Part shown: piece by piece, positions 4,521 through 51,220 of the stretch
Layout of the letters: the number at the start of each line of letters is the position of its first letter
Numbering within the stretch: position 1 is the first letter of the stretch
From: Salinibacter pepae
GTDB taxonomy: Bacteria; Bacteroidota; Rhodothermia; Rhodothermales; Salinibacteraceae
Direction: 5' to 3'
DNA: 64,000 nucleotides
NCBI RefSeq assembly: GCF_947077775.1
Contig: NZ_CAMTTE010000001.1
Coordinates: forward strand, 1,488,001-1,552,000
Translations under genes and position numbers: made by a program
The notes under the pieces: model-generated
Told to the model about the DNA's origin: nothing
The model's input: only the letters and a program-made list of their open reading frames with translations
Databases searched by the model: none

Positions 4521-5741
4521 ATGGCGGCTCCTGATTCCGACACCAACGACGGCCAGGAGGACACAGGGGCGGCGGCAGCGGTGCAATCCCGCTCGCACGA
4601 CGGGGCGACCGGACGCGACGCGTCGTGGCCCCGCCTGCAGCGGCACATCTTTCGCACCGCGAGCCGCCACCTGCCCGATCCCGCCGGCACGGCGGAGGCA
4701 GGAGTGGAGCCGCCCCCCAAGCGCACGGGCCGCTACGCCCGCTGGCTGCCGGTGCTGAAGGCCCTGCCCTGGGTGCTGGGCGCGCTCTTCGCCTTGTCGT
4801 TCGTGTGGGACTTTCCGGGCGTCACGCTCAGCGTGGCGGGCTACACGATTGTGCTGGAGGACCTGCTGCGCTTCACCGCCGTCAGCGGCCTCGTCGGCTT
4901 CGGCACGAACTGGCTCGCCATCACGATGCTCTTTCGGCCCCGCGAGGCGCGGCCCCTCGTGGGCCAGGGCCTGGTGCCCGCCCAGCGGGAACGGGTGGCC
5001 TACCGCCTCGCCCAGGCCGTGAGCGACGAGCTCATCAACAAGTCCCTCATCAAGGAGAAAATTCGGGGGAGCGGCCTCGTGGCCCGGTACCGCGACCTGC
5101 TCGTGGCGGCGGCCCGCGACGTGGCGACCGACGAGGCGGTGCGCACGGAGGGGAAGGCGCTGCTCCGCCGCGCGCTTCGGGACGTGCTCTCCACCCCGTC
5201 GGTGCAGGAGCGCATCGTCGCCCTCACCGCCGAGCAGGTGGAGGCGCAGGCCGGCGAGGGCCTCTCGGGCCTGATGCTGCGGGCCTACCGGTACTTCGGG
5301 GAGGACGACTTCCGGGCCCGCCTGCGCGAGACCGTGCGGCGCCTGCCCGATGCGGTCGACCCGCTGGTGGAGGAGCTCGATCCGGTGCTCGACCGCCTCC
5401 CCGCCGAACTCGAGCGCCGCAGCGACGAGATCGAATCGCTACTGACGCGCGTCGTGCTCCGCCTCGTCGACACGCTCGACCTGAAGCGCATGATCTACGA
5501 GAACGTCCGTGCTTACGACGAGCGGCAGCTCGAAATGCTGCTGCGCCGCACGACCAACGAGCAGCTCAACTACATCAAGTACCTCGGGGCCGCCCTCGGC
5601 ATCGTCGGCGGCTTCATCATCTGGGCGCCGGCGGCCGCCCTCGTCGCGGTCACCACGCTCGGCCTCGCCATCTACGGCGTGGACGAGGCGCTCTTTCGCG
5701 CCCGGACAAATGACCGGACAGATGATACGTCGTCCTCGTAA
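4521..5741 (+). CDS. DUF445-family membrane protein
   Basis: 406 residues. An acidic, low-complexity N-terminus (about 1-70) is followed by a hydrophobic stretch at about 82-100 and the DUF445 signature region (GFGTNWLAITMLFRPREARPL). A long charged helical middle and a C-terminal membrane segment (YLGAALGIVGGFIIWAPAAALVAV) follow. Function is unknown; members resemble YheB/YjiN proteins of the bacterial envelope. It starts 48 bp after the MCE gene in the same direction and may belong to the same operon, which suggests an envelope or lipid role, but this is inference from position only. Confidence 0.8.
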   Translation: MAAPDSDTNDGQEDTGAAAAVQSRSHDGATGRDASWPRLQRHIFRTASRHLPDPAGTAEAGVEPPPKRTGRYARWLPVLKALPWVLGALFALSFVWDFPGVTLSVAGYTIVLEDLLRFTAVSGLVGFGTNWLAITMLFRPREARPLVGQGLVPAQRERVAYRLAQAVSDELINKSLIKEKIRGSGLVARYRDLLVAAARDVATDEAVRTEGKALLRRALRDVLSTPSVQERIVALTAEQVEAQAGEGLSGLMLRAYRYFGEDDFRARLRETVRRLPDAVDPLVEELDPVLDRLPAELERRSDEIESLLTRVVLRLVDTLDLKRMIYENVRAYDERQLEMLLRRTTNEQLNYIKYLGAALGIVGGFIIWAPAAALVAVTTLGLAIYGVDEALFRARTNDRTDDTSSS

Positions 5742-5804
5742 AACCGGCTGCGCACACATTGATCGGTCGTCCCTGCTTTTCCTTCACCACCTGCACTGCC
5801 GCCA

Positions 5805-7214
5805 ATGCCCCCCCACGAGCCCCTCTCCGGCGTCGACGCGGCGTGGCTGCGGATGGACGAGCCGACGAACCTGATGACCATTACGGGCGTGCTCGTGCTC
5901 GACGACCCGATGGACGTGGGCACGCTCAAGGCCCTCCTGGAGGAGCGCTTCCTCGGCTTCGACCGGTTTCGGCAGCGGGTGCGCGACCCCGAGGGCTCGC
6001 CGTACTGGGAACTGGACCCGTACTTCGACCTCGACCGGCACGTGCACCGCACGGCCCTGCCGGGCGCGGCCGGTCGCGACGAGCTCAAGGAGCGGGTGAG
6101 CACGCTCATGAGCGTGCCGCTCGACCGCGAGAAGCCGCTCTGGGAGATGGAGCTGGTGGAGGACTACCTCGGCGGCAGTGCCCTCATTATACGGCTGCAC
6201 CACTGCATCGCCGACGGGATGGCCCTGCTGCAGGTGCTGCTGTCGCTCACCGACGAGCACTTCGACCCGGCCCGCTTCCCCACGACGGAGGACCGCGGGC
6301 TGCTCTCCGGCGTGGTGCAGGGCGCCCTCGACACCGTCCGCGGCACCGTCCGGACTGGGCGGCGCCTGCTGAGCGAAGGCGCAAAGTCGCTCCTTCAACC
6401 CTCCCGCGCCCTGCGGCGCGCGAAACAGGGCTTGAGCTTCGGGGCCGCGCTGTCGAAGTTTCTCTCGCTGCCCCACGATGACGACACGCCCCTCAAGGGC
6501 GAGCTGGGCGTGAAGCAGCGGGCCACGTGGTCCGCCCCGCTCGACCTGGCCCGCGTGAAGCGCATCGGGGGCGTCGTGGACGCCAAGGTGAACGACGTGC
6601 TGCTCGGGGCCGTGGCGGGGGCGCTGCGGTACTACCTGGCCGCCCGCACGGAGCCGACCGACACGGAGACGGTGCGCGCCCTCATCCCGGTCAACCTGCG
6701 CCCGCCGGAGCGGGCCTTCGAGCTGGGCAACCGCTTCGGGCTCGTGTTTCTGGACCTGCCCGTCGGCCTCGACGATCCCCTGGAGCGCATGCTGGCGGTG
6801 AAGCAGCGGATGGACGCCCTGAAGGGCTCGGCGGAGGCCGTCGCCGCGCTCACCGTGCTGGAGGGGCTCGGCTACCTGCCGCTGAGCGTGGAGGACCGCG
6901 CCGTGCGCCACTTCAGCAACCGGGCCAGCGCGGTGATGACGAACGTGCCGGGGCCCCAGGAGCCGCTCCACATGAAGGGGCGGCACGTGCAGCACGTGAT
7001 GCCGTGGGTGCCACGGGCGGGGCACGTGGGCCTGGGCGTGAGCATCTTCAGCTACGACGGCACGGTGCGCCTCGGCATCGCCTGCGACGCCGGCCTCATC
7101 CCCGACCCCGACACGATCATCGACGGATTCCAGCAGGAGTTCGACCGGCTCGCGGACACCCTGCTGCCCGCCACGGATGAGGGGCCGTCCCCCGCGTCGT
7201 CCCCTCAAGGGTAA
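5805..7214 (+). CDS. Wax-ester synthase / acyl-CoA:diacylglycerol acyltransferase (WS/DGAT)
   Basis: 469 residues. Makes neutral storage lipids (wax esters or triacylglycerol) by transferring acyl groups from acyl-CoA to long-chain alcohols or diacylglycerol. The catalytic HHxxxDG motif is present as HHCIADG at residues 132-138, preceded by the family PLW motif at 111-113 (REKPLWEMELVEDYL). Other conserved segments include KVNDVLLGAVAGALR, LIPVNLRP, and NVPGPQEPLHMKG near the C-terminus. Length is normal for the family. Its last 10 bp overlap the end of the convergent phasin gene. Together with the phasin and SCP2-like neighbours it suggests neutral-lipid or granule storage; substrate preference cannot be read from sequence. 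Confidence 0.9.
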   Translation: MPPHEPLSGVDAAWLRMDEPTNLMTITGVLVLDDPMDVGTLKALLEERFLGFDRFRQRVRDPEGSPYWELDPYFDLDRHVHRTALPGAAGRDELKERVSTLMSVPLDREKPLWEMELVEDYLGGSALIIRLHHCIADGMALLQVLLSLTDEHFDPARFPTTEDRGLLSGVVQGALDTVRGTVRTGRRLLSEGAKSLLQPSRALRRAKQGLSFGAALSKFLSLPHDDDTPLKGELGVKQRATWSAPLDLARVKRIGGVVDAKVNDVLLGAVAGALRYYLAARTEPTDTETVRALIPVNLRPPERAFELGNRFGLVFLDLPVGLDDPLERMLAVKQRMDALKGSAEAVAALTVLEGLGYLPLSVEDRAVRHFSNRASAVMTNVPGPQEPLHMKGRHVQHVMPWVPRAGHVGLGVSIFSYDGTVRLGIACDAGLIPDPDTIIDGFQQEFDRLADTLLPATDEGPSPASSPQG

Positions 7215-44834: not shown

Positions 44835-46064
44835 CTACATTAACACCACGGCCGCGAGGGCGAGCAGAATGAACCCAATCAGCAGCATAATCGAATACAC
44901 GAGCAGCAGGAGGAACGCCTTGATCGTCGACTTGATGAGTCCTTGCTCGTAGACGTGCCCCATCGCGACGACGAGGTACAGAAGGGGCGCTAGCTCCACC
45001 CAGGTCGCGGCGGTCTGGCCCCACGGGGCCTCCACCGCGCCAAGAAGGATGCCGACGGTGAAGGCGAAAAAGGCGAACGCGTGCAGGTGGAGACTGAAGA
45101 TGAGGTGCTCCACGTAAAGACGCCCCCGCCGGATGTAGAGCAGCTTGAGGAGAAAGGCGAAGACGGGCAGCATCAGGAACATGACGTAGGGCCCCCGATC
45201 AATCATGCCCCCGATCAGGTCTCGGGGGGTCCGGATGGCCTCGGCCACCTTTGCTCGGAGGAGCGGCTCAAGACGCGCCTGGGTCTCCGCCCCCCCAAAC
45301 AGCACATCCACCGTGCCCGGATTTTGCCGAAACGACCGCGCCCACCGCTCGCGCTGCTCGGGACTGCCAAAGAACCAGGGCGCCGAGGCCACTGCGGTCG
45401 TGTCCATCTCGGCCCTCCCCATTCCCGTCTGGACCGTCGTGTCCGTCGGGGCGGGCGACATCTGCGGATTGAAGGGCACCTGCAGCCCGCCCCCGGCGGT
45501 GAAGGCGAGCACGGTAAACAGGACGAACGTGGTAAATAGGTACAGCCGGAAGGGGCGGATGTAGCGCTTGCGCCGCCCGTTGATGTACTCCTTCGTGAGC
45601 CGGCCGGGCAGGAACAGGAATTTGGGCAGGGTCCAGAGCACCCGCATGTCGAGCTCAATGACGGCCTCCAGCGCCTCATTGAGCATGTGCCAGAGGGGCA
45701 CGACCCGCTCGGCGGCCTTCTGCCCACACTGCGAACAGTACGGCCCGTCCAGGAGTGCACCGCAGTTCTCACACTGGTCCTCAGGGGCCCCGGACGAGGG
45801 AGATGTGCCCGAGTCGGTCGGGGGGGACGCCGACTCGGAGGACGGGGGCTCCTGGGAATCTTCCGCCTCCACGACCGGCTCCTCGTCGAGGTCGGCCATC
45901 GCCTCGATCTGCGCCAAGGCGTCTTCGGCCGCGGCCCGGGCCTCGTCCGGATCCGGCGCGGCCTGCCCGGATGCGCCCTGCCCGGACGGGCCCTCGTCGC
46001 CGGGACCTCCCAGGGGATCGTCCTCGGGGCGGCCGGACTCAGAGCCGAGTGGTGGAGCGCTCAT
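44835..46064 (-). CDS. DUF3667-family membrane protein with zinc ribbon
   Basis: 409 residues. A long acidic disordered N-terminus (about 1-95) is followed by a two-CxxC zinc ribbon (CENCGALLDGPYCSQCGQK, about 98-116), then the DUF3667 core (LPKFLFLPGRLTKEYINGRR, then KRYIRPFRLYLFTTFVLFTV), and about four further membrane helices. The family is common in Bacteroidota and of unknown function. Its acidic N-terminus is longer than usual, in keeping with a halophile. Upstream of and co-directional with the PAP2-like gene. Confidence 0.85.
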   Translation of the reverse strand: MSAPPLGSESGRPEDDPLGGPGDEGPSGQGASGQAAPDPDEARAAAEDALAQIEAMADLDEEPVVEAEDSQEPPSSESASPPTDSGTSPSSGAPEDQCENCGALLDGPYCSQCGQKAAERVVPLWHMLNEALEAVIELDMRVLWTLPKFLFLPGRLTKEYINGRRKRYIRPFRLYLFTTFVLFTVLAFTAGGGLQVPFNPQMSPAPTDTTVQTGMGRAEMDTTAVASAPWFFGSPEQRERWARSFRQNPGTVDVLFGGAETQARLEPLLRAKVAEAIRTPRDLIGGMIDRGPYVMFLMLPVFAFLLKLLYIRRGRLYVEHLIFSLHLHAFAFFAFTVGILLGAVEAPWGQTAATWVELAPLLYLVVAMGHVYEQGLIKSTIKAFLLLLVYSIMLLIGFILLALAAVVLM

Positions 46065-46217: not shown

Positions 46218-47690
46218 TCAGTACGCCTGCGCGAAAAGCACGCGGCCCTCGGACGGCTTGCCCGTCAGCATGTCTTCTCCCTCCTCGTGGTCCTCACGGT
46301 CGAAGGGGATGAGGCGGATGGTCGCGGAGGTCTCCTCCTGAATCCGTGCTTCGGTCTCCGGCGTGCCGTCCCAGTGGGCCCAGGCGAAGCCGCCCCGCCC
46401 GATGACCTCGCGGAACGCGTCGTAGTCCTCGACGACGCGGGTGTTGTCCTGCTGCCGCTCCTGCGCCCGGTCGTAGAGGGACTGTTGGATGTCGTCGAGC
46501 GTGTCGGCCACCCGCTCCGCGATGCCGTCCTGTGGCACCACCTCCTTCTCCTGCGTGTCGCGGCGGGCCATCTCCACGTTGTCGTTCTCCAGGTCGCGCG
46601 GCCCGATGGCGAGGCGGAGCGGCACGCCGCGCAGCTCGTGCTCGCTGAAGCGCCAGCCCGGGCTCTGCGTGTGGTTCTGATCCATCTTCACGCGGAGGCC
46701 CTGACCCTCCAGCCGTTCCTGCAGCTGCTCGCACGTCTCCATCACCGGCCCCTCCTGGTCGTCGTCGAAGAAGAGGGGCACGATCACGACCTGGTGCGGC
46801 GCCAGCTTGGGGGGCAAGACCAGGCCCTGGTCGTCGGAGTGGGTCATGATGAGGCCGCCGATCAGGCGGGTCGACACGCCCCACGAGGTGGCCCACACGT
46901 GCTCCTCCTCGTTGTTCTCGTTGGTGAAGGTGCAGTCGAACGCCTTGGCGAAGTTCTGGCCCAGAAAGTGGCTCGTGCCGGCCTGCAGCGCCTTCCCGTC
47001 CTGCATCATCGCCTCGATGCAGTAGGTGTCCACCGCCCCCGGAAAGCGCTCGCTCTCCGTCTTCCGCCCCTGGAGCACCGGCATCGCCATATGCTCCTCG
47101 GCGAACGTGGTGTACACGTCGAGCATCCGCTCGGCCTCCTCGATCGCCCCTGTCTCCGTGGCGTGGGCGGTGTGCCCCTCCTGCCACAGAAACTCGGCGG
47201 TGCGCAGGAAGAGGCGCGGCCGCATCTCCCACCGGACGACGTTGGCCCACTGGTTGTAGAGCAGCGGCAGGTCGCGGTACGACTGGATCCACTTCGCGTA
47301 CGTGTCCCAGATGATCGTCTCGGAGGTGGGGCGCACGATGTAGTTCTCGCCCAGCTCCGACTCCGGGTCGGGAATCAGGTCGCCTTCCTCGTCCTGCGTG
47401 AGGCGGGAGTGGGTCACCACGGCGCACTCCTTCGCGAAGCCCTCCACGTGCTCCGCCTCCCGCTCCATGTAGCGCTCCGGGATGAAGAGCGGGAAGTAGT
47501 AGTTCTGGTGGCCCGTGTCCTTAAACATCTGGTCGAGCTCATCGCGCATGTTCTCCCAGAGGGCCATGCCGTTGGGCTTGATGATCATGCACCCGCGGGC
47601 GGGGGAGTTTTCGGCCAGCTGGCCGTTGCGCACGACGTCCTGGTACCACTGCGAGTAGTCTTCATCACGGGGCGTGACTGCGTCTGCCAT
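46218..47690 (-). CDS. proS: Prolyl-tRNA synthetase (archaeal/eukaryal type)
   Basis: 490 residues. Class II synthetase motifs are present: [20 protein letters not shown] (motif 2 region start), [20 protein letters not shown] and the [20 protein letters not shown] motif 3 region, then an anticodon-binding domain and a C-terminal domain ending LFAQAY. It lacks the INS editing insertion of standard bacterial ProRS and matches the shorter type found in archaea, eukaryotes and many Bacteroidota. Charges tRNA-Pro. Transcribed away from the SR-rich lipoprotein gene. Confidence 0.95.
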
Positions 47691-48103: not shown

Positions 48104-49534
48104 ATGGCATACGTTGATTGGTCTCGCCCCCCCACACCGCGCTACGCCTCCACACCGCGCCACGTAGGCGTTCTTCTCATCCTCGGCGTTCTGGGCGTTG
48201 GCCTCACGGGCTGTTACACCCAACTGAAGACGGTGGACGCGCCGGATCGGCAGCCGCGCGCCGAGCAGACACAGACGCGCACGCAGCAGTACGCCGACGA
48301 GTACCGGCGCGAAGACCGCCAGGGGGCCCGTCGGCAGACTGAGGCGCAAAGGACCAAGCGGTACGAATACAACTACCATTTTTATGACCGGGGCGTGACG
48401 TACAGCCGCCTGCACTATGATCCCTTCCTTCACGACCCCTTCTTTCACGACCCCTTTTTCCACCATCCGTACGGCTCCTCGTTTTCGTTCTCCTTCCGTT
48501 TTGGATCGCCGTACGGTTCCATCCGGCCGCGGTACTACCGGTCCTTTTATCTCGACCCGTTCGGGCGCCCTCTGTACGGGTACCGATACGGCGCCTTCTC
48601 CTCTTTCGGGCCCGCCTACGGGCTGAGCTACGGCAGCCTGTATCCCGCAGAAACGTCGGAGGAGGCAACCGGGGGCCGAGCCTACCGCCCGCGGGGAGGA
48701 ACCATCGGACGAAGCGCCTCGGGCGCCGACCAGCGCGGCACACGGTCTCGGAACAACGACCGGGCGGTCGCCGCCCGCCAGGCTCGGTCCGACGGCCGCA
48801 TTGGTCGCCGCCCGTCGGACCGGCGTGAGGCACGTCGCGCACGGTCGAGCCGCACCGAACGAGGACGGCGCGCGCGGCCGGCACGAGCACGAAGCGACCG
48901 GGCCCGGTCGTCGAGCGGACGCATTGGCCGCCGCACCATAGACCGGGGCCGTACGGTTCGGGGGCGGTCTTCTCGAAGCCGCTCGCGTGACGCTCGGCGA
49001 AGCCGGCGGGCCGACGACGCGGGGGCACGGCGATCCAGCCGTTCCTCGAACCGAGACGCCCGCCGGCAGGCACGGCGGCGGTCCTCAGACTCAGGCAACA
49101 GGCGCGCCCGGTCGGGCCGGCAGGCGGACCGCGACGGCTCCCGATCGAGCCGCGGCTCCCGCTCCGGCGAGGACGGAGAAAGACGACTGCTCCTGGACCG
49201 CTACACCCCAGATCGCCTTGACACCGACCGCTACGAGCAAAAGCGGAGACGCCTCCGGCGGGAGCGACGGCGGCCCCATCGCACGCTGAACTGGGGTCCC
49301 CCTGAGTCCGAGACCGTCGGCTTCTCCGACCGGGCCGATCCGTTCTCGTTTGAGCGCTCCCAGTCCGTGAACCGCTCCCGGTCGCGGTCAACCTCTCGGT
49401 CGCCACAGTCGTCCTCTCGCGCCGAATCGTCGCGCTCGGATCGCTCGTCTTCGGCCTCTCGGGAGCCGCGGTCATCACGCTCGGATCGTGAGGGATCAAG
49501 CCGGAGCAGCCGGAGTGACGAGGACGACCGGTAG
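48104..49534 (+). CDS. Lipoprotein with arginine/serine-rich low-complexity domain
   Basis: 476 residues. A membrane-targeting segment ends in a lipobox (LGVGLTGC, Cys37), so the protein is probably anchored as a lipoprotein. After a charged region comes an aromatic/His tract with three HDPF-type repeats (about 105-122), and Tyr/Gly/Phe-rich sequence to about 180. Residues about 195-400 and 425-476 are dominated by Arg and Ser (RS, SR and RR pairs). The protein is strongly basic, in sharp contrast to its acidic neighbours. No known fold or function is recognised; binding of nucleic acid or other anions, or cell-surface adhesion, are possibilities only. An OmpP1/FadL-type gene follows after 81 bp. 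Confidence 0.75.
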   Translation: MAYVDWSRPPTPRYASTPRHVGVLLILGVLGVGLTGCYTQLKTVDAPDRQPRAEQTQTRTQQYADEYRREDRQGARRQTEAQRTKRYEYNYHFYDRGVTYSRLHYDPFLHDPFFHDPFFHHPYGSSFSFSFRFGSPYGSIRPRYYRSFYLDPFGRPLYGYRYGAFSSFGPAYGLSYGSLYPAETSEEATGGRAYRPRGGTIGRSASGADQRGTRSRNNDRAVAARQARSDGRIGRRPSDRREARRARSSRTERGRRARPARARSDRARSSSGRIGRRTIDRGRTVRGRSSRSRSRDARRSRRADDAGARRSSRSSNRDARRQARRRSSDSGNRRARSGRQADRDGSRSSRGSRSGEDGERRLLLDRYTPDRLDTDRYEQKRRRLRRERRRPHRTLNWGPPESETVGFSDRADPFSFERSQSVNRSRSRSTSRSPQSSSRAESSRSDRSSSASREPRSSRSDREGSSRSSRSDEDDR

Positions 49535-49615
49535 TCCACCCCGCAGCCGGGACGGCGGTCCCGTCCCGGCTGCTCGGCCCTCAGACCCGCTCTGTCATAC
49601 AGCAACACCCGATCT

Positions 49616-51220
49616 ATGTCGACGCGGTCGTTTTGCTTTCTGCTCCTCCTGGTTGGCCTCATCGGGGTTTTTCCCGCCATCGCTGCCGCACAGACAGCGG
49701 ATGATGCGTACCGCTTTTCCAATCGGTTTCCGGCGGTCGGGACACGTGCGACCGGGATGAGCGGCGCCGGCGGCGTGGGGGGATGGGCCGACCCGAGTGC
49801 CCTCTACACCAACCCGGCGGGCCTCGGGTACTACCAGGCGTCGGAGATCAGCGGGAGCCTCAGTGGACTGCTTAGTCGAGATGAATCCACCTACCAGATC
49901 TTCGTCGACGGGCCTGCCTCCCAGAATACCGGCGACAACGCGACCGCCCGGCTCGGCCACCTCACGGGCATCTACAACGTGGATACGGAACGAGGATCGC
50001 TCGTCTTTGCGCTCGGCTTCAACCGGACGTCTGCGTTCGACCGCGAGTTGACATACAGCGGTAAAAATTCCTCCAGCTCGATTACGGACACATTTTTGCC
50101 GTTCGGGGAGGAGTTCGACGTCTCGGAGGACAACGGCACCGTCAACATCGATGTCGTTCCCATCGTCCCCTTCGTCGCCTTTCAGGCAGGAGCCGTTGAA
50201 TTTTTCAATTCTCGATTTCAGAACGACCAGTATCCATTCCTTCAGGCCGTCGCCCCGGGCCAAAGCATCCAACAAGACGGTGCAGTAACGCGGGGGGGCT
50301 CCATGAACGAATTCAGCTTCGCCGGCGCCATCGAGGTCGCGCCGGACGTAATGATTGGAGGAGCCGCCAATATTTCGTACGGTACGTACGTTTTCGAGAA
50401 CGAGTTGACGGAAACGGCGACCCGCCCTGGCTCTAACGACGGGTACTCCGTCGTCGTGGGCGACCGGCTACTTGAGGGCTTCCGGAGCATGTTCTTCCGG
50501 GAGCGATTCACCTCCGACCTGACGGGCTTCAACCTTCGCCTCGGCCTCTCGGCCCGTACGGTCGAGAACGTCCGGATCGGATTCACGGTGGAGACGCCCA
50601 CCTGGTACTCCATTGACGAGACGTTCACGGACGCGTTGATCCGCACCGAGTTTGGGAACGGATCGCTGGCCTACGGTGACGACCCCGACGAAGACGCCGC
50701 CCGCGGGGAATTTCAGTACCAGTTGCAAACCCCGTGGCGCCTCAGCACCGGCGTGAGCTACACGCGCGACCCGTTCCTCATTTCGGCCGACGTGGAGTTC
50801 GTGGACTGGTCCCAGACACGTCTCGATGCCGACGAGACGGAGTTCGACGTGACCAACGAGACTCTCGAGGAGTACGACTATGTGGTGAACTGGCGGGGCG
50901 GCATCGAATACCGTTCGGAAAACGGCCTCTCTCTACGGACCGGGATCGCGTACCGCCCGGGGGCTCGTGGGTTTGACTTCACCCTGGCCGGTGGCGAAGA
51001 GACCGATCGCTCGCGCTTGTTTCTGTCGGCAGGGGGTGGCGTCCAGTTGAGCGAGCGCCTTTCCCTGAATGCCGCCTGGATGCAGGAGCGCTCGACGGAT
51101 CAGTTTCTCCCCTACGCAAGCGTGACGCCCCCCAGCGAGTCCGAACCGATTGACGTTCCGGTCATCGACGAGGATGTCGTCCGGAACCAGATTCGGGTGG
51201 GCCTTCGCTACTCGTTCTGA
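49616..51220 (+). CDS. OmpP1/FadL/TodX-family outer-membrane transport protein
   Basis: 534 residues. A signal peptide (about 1-26, ending AIAAAQ) precedes an N-terminal hatch (GTRATGMSGAGGVGGWADPS, then ALYTNPAGLGYYQ) typical of the family, then an antiparallel beta-barrel ending in a terminal Phe (IRVGLRYSF). Members take up hydrophobic molecules, such as long-chain fatty acids or aromatics, across the outer membrane. Located 81 bp after the SR-rich lipoprotein gene on the same strand; a link with the lipid-storage genes is conceivable but they are 40 kb away. Confidence 0.88.
   Translation: MSTRSFCFLLLLVGLIGVFPAIAAAQTADDAYRFSNRFPAVGTRATGMSGAGGVGGWADPSALYTNPAGLGYYQASEISGSLSGLLSRDESTYQIFVDGPASQNTGDNATARLGHLTGIYNVDTERGSLVFALGFNRTSAFDRELTYSGKNSSSSITDTFLPFGEEFDVSEDNGTVNIDVVPIVPFVAFQAGAVEFFNSRFQNDQYPFLQAVAPGQSIQQDGAVTRGGSMNEFSFAGAIEVAPDVMIGGAANISYGTYVFENELTETATRPGSNDGYSVVVGDRLLEGFRSMFFRERFTSDLTGFNLRLGLSARTVENVRIGFTVETPTWYSIDETFTDALIRTEFGNGSLAYGDDPDEDAARGEFQYQLQTPWRLSTGVSYTRDPFLISADVEFVDWSQTRLDADETEFDVTNETLEEYDYVVNWRGGIEYRSENGLSLRTGIAYRPGARGFDFTLAGGEETDRSRLFLSAGGGVQLSERLSLNAAWMQERSTDQFLPYASVTPPSESEPIDVPVIDEDVVRNQIRVGLRYSF

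Follow-up and report, generated by a model that had tools for sequence, protein, structure and literature searches.

LIPO, an Arg/Ser-rich lipoprotein, and OMP, a FadL-fold outer-membrane barrel, are encoded side by side in the 64,000-nucleotide stretch of Salinibacter pepae DNA analyzed here (the window; Table 1). They constitute a same-strand gene pair that is kept across the phylum, and the net charges of the two proteins co-vary over evolution. On balance, we favor the reading that LIPO is a dedicated partner of the adjacent barrel, tethered beside it, where it would recruit anionic amphiphiles or act as a gate; the evidence for the partnership is considerably stronger than that for the transport step.

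Table 1. Features of the window discussed in the text.
Feature	Position	Strand	Remarks
Membrane protein	44835..46064	-	N-terminal CxxC...CxxC zinc-ribbon-like segment (CENCGALLDGPYCSQCGQK)
ProS, presumably prolyl-tRNA synthetase (named from sequence knowledge)	46218..47690	-	divergent neighbor; upstream of the pair in many relatives
LIPO, Arg/Ser-rich lipoprotein (476 aa)	48104..49534	+	based on ORF, homologues and dN/dS
LIPO signal peptide and lipobox GLTGC	48104..48214	+	modified Cys is residue 37 (48212-48214)
LIPO linker, residues 38-90	48215..48373	+	YADEYRRE motif; predicted helix 53-96, pLDDT about 50-75
LIPO Tyr/Phe-rich region, residues 91-185 (YDPFLHDPFFHDPFF...)	48374..48658	+	low confidence, no predicted fold
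LIPO Arg/Ser-rich basic tail, residues 186-476	48659..49531	+	predicted disordered except for a short helix, 374-388
Open frame antisense through LIPO (431 aa)	48204..49499	-	likely a by-product of Arg/Ser codon composition
GC-rich, near-perfect hairpin	49543..49573		between LIPO stop and OMP start; no T run
OMP, FadL-fold outer-membrane barrel (534 aa)	49616..51220	+	81 bases downstream of LIPO

LIPO is encoded by an intact frame with an ATG start and a TAG stop, and its lipobox (residues 33-37), as read from the sequence, is that of a bacterial lipoprotein. With a pI of 11.51 and a net charge of +56 (109 Arg, 3 Lys, 35 Asp and 21 Glu; +47 for residues 186-395 alone), it is the strongly basic, Arg/Ser-rich and lipid-anchored polycation that a preliminary description had recognized. 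We compared it with 344 other ORFs from the window and from a sample of the same genome that covers 400 kb (about 11%) in 20 stretches of 20 kb at even spacing; the script that called the ORFs was simple and admitted some spurious ones. Among the 345, LIPO has the highest Arg fraction (0.229; next, 0.192) and the highest density of RS/SR/RR pairs (0.145; next, 0.098), with 59 such pairs in residues 238-476. Its pI is equaled or exceeded by 18 of the 344 and its net charge density by 7. The median pI of the sampled ORFs is 6.15, and a median of 5.92 is reported for S. ruber (PMC3817357). Relative to shuffles of the tail's own composition, RS pairs are in excess (27 vs. 17.2 expected, p = 0.002), SR pairs are as expected (19 vs. 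17.2) and RR pairs are depleted (18 vs. 26.4). Since only RS exceeds the shuffles, the pair density mostly reflects composition, and these counts rule out a pure RS-repeat or SR-like domain.

An AlphaFold2 model of LIPO, built with 20 relatives, has a mean pLDDT of 44.8 and no domain; apart from the signal helix and the two helices listed in Table 1, it is essentially disordered. Neither Pfam, NCBIfam or PHROGs families nor solved structures gave a match, and the Pfam search returned 0 families at E up to 1, with no RRM and no peptidoglycan-binding domain. Across 20 homologues L34, G36, C37, Y38, T39 and Q40 are invariant, as is R197 in the tail, which begins near a PRGGTIGR motif. The two outcomes named beforehand as speaking against the protein, a lack of homologues and an interrupted frame, were not encountered, as homologues occur across the phylum and the frame is open in relatives. 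Given these open frames and dN/dS values of 0.20-0.37 (tail) and 0.25-0.33 (residues 37-185), LIPO is a real gene under purifying selection, in its tail and N-terminal part alike.

The LIPO family, predicted to be disordered, is old in the phylum and has no Pfam or NCBIfam model. Of the 27 genomes in the host's family, 20 gave a match to a single-protein search, while a profile of its N-terminal part (20 members) matched in 65 of 114 genomes of the order and 70 of 394 genomes sampled from the phylum. A scan of named contigs yielded 23 loci, including Salinibacter, Salinivenus, Longimonas, Roseithermus, Rhodothermales and Balneolaceae. Members share a layout of LTGCYTQL or close variants, an acidic linker, a Tyr/Phe-rich middle, PRGxTxGR and an Arg/Ser tail. 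Cys-Tyr-Thr stands at the lipobox in all 78 members examined, and the linker (+6 to +45) is net negative in 69 of them. Such a protein had been thought exceptional in a halophile, but all 76 usable tails (L107 and L110 omitted), from genomes of 33-69% GC, are net positive, those of Roseithermus, Balneolaceae and others not named as halophiles included; a halophile-specific oddity is thus rejected, the family being found across order and phylum. The tail favors Arg over Lys, with R/(R+K) at 0.91 vs. 0.73 in the neighboring barrel. In genomes below 42% GC the corresponding values are 0.82 and 0.49, and the tail is higher in 24 of 24.

OMP adjoins LIPO in 18 of the 20 loci of the host's family (L039 and L042 have LIPO with no barrel nearby) and in 38 of 40 more distant loci, the remaining two being cut at contig ends (38 of 38 readable). 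At an E threshold of 1e-20, 266 of 389 genomes of the phylum had a match to OMP itself. When 20 genomes with OMP and no LIPO profile match were checked from the barrel side, a GCYT lipoprotein lay upstream in 18; one locus is at a contig edge and one (L151) has no upstream LIPO. At 21 still more distant OMP loci (18 genomes of other families and three of one genus, that of G131), the upstream ORF invariably has a basic tail (21 of 21); its net charge is positive in 20, and in 11 it lies opposite ProS. Only position and composition link these ORFs to LIPO; in several no lipobox is visible, and some look secreted rather than lipidated.

Other elements of the neighborhood vary. The zinc-ribbon-like membrane protein stays beside ProS in several relatives. 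The intergenic hairpin (-35 kcal/mol for an 86-nt stretch, z = -2.59) is not kept in the three relatives checked, and a promoter scan gave nothing above chance for the pair. Four loci (L122, L137, L156 and L160) carry an extra small GCYT-type lipoprotein between or beside LIPO and OMP, holding a CxxCH motif (CAECH, CLSCH, CAQCH and CSSCH); we take this motif to be the c-type heme-binding pattern. Another small lipoprotein (GCYTVLW...PWW or similar) lies between the two genes in L125, L130, L131, L132 and L158, so that some lineages have two or three GCYT lipoproteins per cluster. In G013 (L032, about 5380-5850), a second GCYT lipoprotein, acidic and with no Arg tail, is located between ProS and LIPO, and G014 has a second match to the LIPO profile at the corresponding place.

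By its PF03349 (FadL/OmpP1/TodX) score of 39.9 bits (curated cut-off, 29.7) and its predicted fold, OMP is a member of the FadL/OmpP1/TodX family; its homologue at L102 scores 24.9 bits, under the cut-off. The AlphaFold2 model (pLDDT 87.9) is a 14-stranded FadL barrel with an N-terminal hatch. In the VIA comparison the model is closest to TbuX (Z = 35.2, rmsd 2.8 over 336 residues), with Z of 34.7 for FadL, 32.4 or less for BamG and 25.8 for PorV; single-sequence searches found no solved relative. N66-P67-A68, invariant or nearly so among homologues, is presumably the FadL hatch motif NPA (the motif is also named in PDB titles). OMP is far under the equivalog cut-off of the BamG model (NCBIfam NF053685, 33.5 of 250 bits) and also under that of the PorV/PorQ model (NF033709, 32 of 90 bits). 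The best BamG match in the host genome is a separate gene at 2912134, which at 239.2 of 250 bits is slightly under the cut-off. The predicted net charge of OMP is -36, of which the predicted extracellular loops account for -27. These loops are negative in 33 of 33 barrels (mean, -21 of about -30), whereas the periplasmic turns average +1.2.

Across 93 LIPO-OMP pairs, the mean net charge is +27.4 for LIPO, with 92 positive, and -25.5 for OMP, with 91 negative, and the two charges are inversely correlated (Spearman, -0.73). Excluded from this set are L107 and L124, which run into contig ends, L110, which has a run of N, L115, whose barrel is partial, and L039 and L042, which have no barrel; LIPO is missing from L151 and L165. 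Phylogenetic contrasts on an OMP tree leave a modest correlation (r = -0.33 to -0.34, p = 0.001), and the signs are opposite in 61-62 of the 92 contrasts; smaller sets gave r = -0.35 (72 pairs, p = 0.003) and r = -0.30 (33 pairs, p = 0.09). With GC as a covariate, the effect of OMP on LIPO charge is still significant (t = -3.4). BamG served as a control (32 genomes searched, 30 loci, 29 paired, 27 used after removal of lengths 0 and 152). Its mean charge is -1.9, and OMP is far more acidic on average (-30.9) and the more acidic of the two in all 27; in plain correlations, with no contrasts, rho is -0.80 for LIPO with OMP and -0.06 for LIPO with BamG. The net charges of LIPO and OMP thus co-vary, while that of BamG does not follow LIPO. 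Part of the co-variation may belong to a wider trend, as ProS also weakly tracks LIPO (35 loci with ProS: LIPO with OMP, rho = -0.42; LIPO with ProS, rho = -0.29, p = 0.09). Docking on the loops of OMP is not singled out, because LIPO charge correlates equally with the loops (rho = -0.58) and with the rest of the barrel (-0.56). Since the charge of this adjacent, negatively charged barrel evolved in step with that of LIPO, OMP is the likeliest partner.

Which side of the outer membrane LIPO faces bears on the alternatives to this partnership. The known surface-lipoprotein export signals described in PMC5080379 are acidic residues at +2 to +6 after the Cys; that rule comes from Bacteroidetes and may not hold for Rhodothermota. 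LIPO has YTQLK at these positions, and any D/E there is confined to 9 of 78 family members, the canonical signal being absent in the other 69, including the window protein. This speaks against the surface anchoring assumed in the preliminary description and argues for a periplasmic location or another signal in this lineage. LIPO may accordingly point into the periplasm, on the side opposite the acidic loops, and its predicted disordered, cationic tail could hold peptidoglycan or some other polyanion of that compartment and so tether or position the barrel. We consider that arrangement unlikely, given that the excess acidity of OMP is predicted to be mainly extracellular, which favors the surface side, that its periplasmic turns are near neutral and that Pfam searches found no peptidoglycan-binding domain in LIPO. 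At the surface, a long, Arg-rich, predicted disordered tail might instead act as an adhesin or matrix polycation that binds extracellular DNA, acidic polymers, capsule or neighboring cells, with the barrel a mere neighbor or export aid; a precedent is NHBA, a surface lipoprotein in which a disordered region rich in Arg is reported to bind heparin (PMC7857515). A DNA- or cell-binding role nevertheless seems quite unlikely, and a partnership with OMP more probable: LIPO is in a fixed pairing with one FadL-fold barrel, the two charges co-vary, LIPO has no canonical export signal, and by established physics saturated brine would screen any charge-based binding of DNA. The genomes suggest an acidic partner closer at hand, namely OMP, the product of the adjacent gene.

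That barrel could also be a scaffold rather than a channel, with LIPO as its subunit in a BamG-BamH-like module for outer-membrane assembly or lipid homeostasis. FadL-family scaffolds with partners, BamG and PorV, are described in Bacteroidota (PMC12611786, PMC12578637), the fold of BamG (Z = 32) is nearly as close to OMP as those of the transporters, and a likely counterpart of the pair in F. johnsoniae responds to TamL depletion (PMC12045153). Against this stand the scores of OMP, far under the BamG and PorV cut-offs, the separate BamG-like barrel, and the predicted unfolded state of LIPO, which would set it apart from BamH, an elongated two-domain lipoprotein that is folded and bound to BamG, so that we place such a module on the improbable side. 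LIPO as the BamH of a true BamG is rejected, as the best BamG match lies elsewhere in the genome. It is highly improbable that the tail is a drifting, low-complexity sequence, Arg-rich merely through high genome GC. Its Arg fraction does climb with GC (rho = 0.48, 76 tails) and its sequence aligns poorly among relatives, but its net charge is independent of GC (rho = 0.15, p = 0.21) and always positive, AGA/AGG codons maintain Arg in AT-rich genomes, and dN/dS is low (0.20-0.37); the GC explanation is largely refuted.

If LIPO is the partner of OMP, it would be held by its lipid in the outer membrane alongside the barrel, its flexible cationic chain lying on or around the anionic OMP. Such a complex would be loose and tolerant of sequence variation, with LIPO probably serving as an electrostatic cap or recruiter, to judge from the sequences. 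The Arg and Tyr/Phe chemistry of LIPO could bring anionic amphiphiles (e.g., fatty acids) to the FadL-type channel; alternatively, LIPO may gate access to it. Simple electrostatics are screened in 4 M salt, which counts against a charge-based partnership. A broader proposal, which we advance tentatively and with some doubt, is a phylum-wide two-protein outer-membrane system in which a disordered, lipid-tethered, Arg/Tyr-rich polycation would coat an anionic FadL-type barrel with a charge-matched, sequence-tolerant layer, fuzzy and condensate-like, and thereby capture or gate amphiphiles, with its charge balance tuned by lineage and Arg used over Lys even in AT-rich or salt-saturated settings.

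Lipoprotein-barrel complexes are a theme of Bacteroidota outer-membrane biology, and such pairs are already known there (BamG-BamH, Sus systems). The open-access papers covered hold no description of the LIPO-OMP pair beyond PMC12045153, and a conserved, disordered, polycationic lipoprotein partner is new as far as this literature shows. If the partnership is real, LIPO would be a conserved disordered partner, whereas the known Bacteroidota partners are folded. The gene pair probably occurs in model species yet has no family model, and an apparent curiosity of one halophile turns out to be an old protein family. The charge co-variation gives a direct test of the partnership and raises a question of physics, namely by what means a polycation could function under conditions that screen electrostatics.

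Several known systems resemble the pair in part. LIPO shares an Arg/Ser-rich, low-complexity region with the eukaryotic SR proteins to which it had been likened; the likeness holds for composition and goes no further, LIPO being an exported lipoprotein with no RRM or other Pfam domain, with RR depleted and RS only modestly enriched over composition. OMP has its fold (Z = 34-35) and a PF03349 score over the cut-off in common with the hydrophobic-substrate channels FadL, TodX and TbuX; we know of no dedicated polycationic lipoprotein with which FadL proper works. Like LIPO and OMP, BamG and BamH of the BAM complex are described as a phylum-wide FadL-fold barrel with a lipoprotein partner (PMC12611786, PMC12578637), unlike them in that OMP scores far below BamG, a BamG-like barrel is present separately and LIPO is predicted to be disordered and polycationic. 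NHBA of Neisseria is likewise a lipoprotein with a disordered Arg-rich region, but its ligand is known and it has a folded barrel domain at its C terminus (PMC7857515), whereas LIPO has no family match. In genome G595, an Arg/Ser/Asn-rich lipoprotein is encoded directly upstream of a near-neutral barrel (-3) at 5,968,134. We take this genome to be that of F. johnsoniae UW101 and the barrel to lie near where the gene numbered about 4941 should be; if so, the LIPO-OMP pair is probably represented in Flavobacterium by Fjoh_4940, a lipoprotein, and Fjoh_4941, a FadL homologue. These two genes are reported as neighbors that both rise on TamL depletion, with fold changes of 2.6 for Fjoh_4940 and 5.6 for Fjoh_4941, and a functional link between them has been suggested (PMC12045153).
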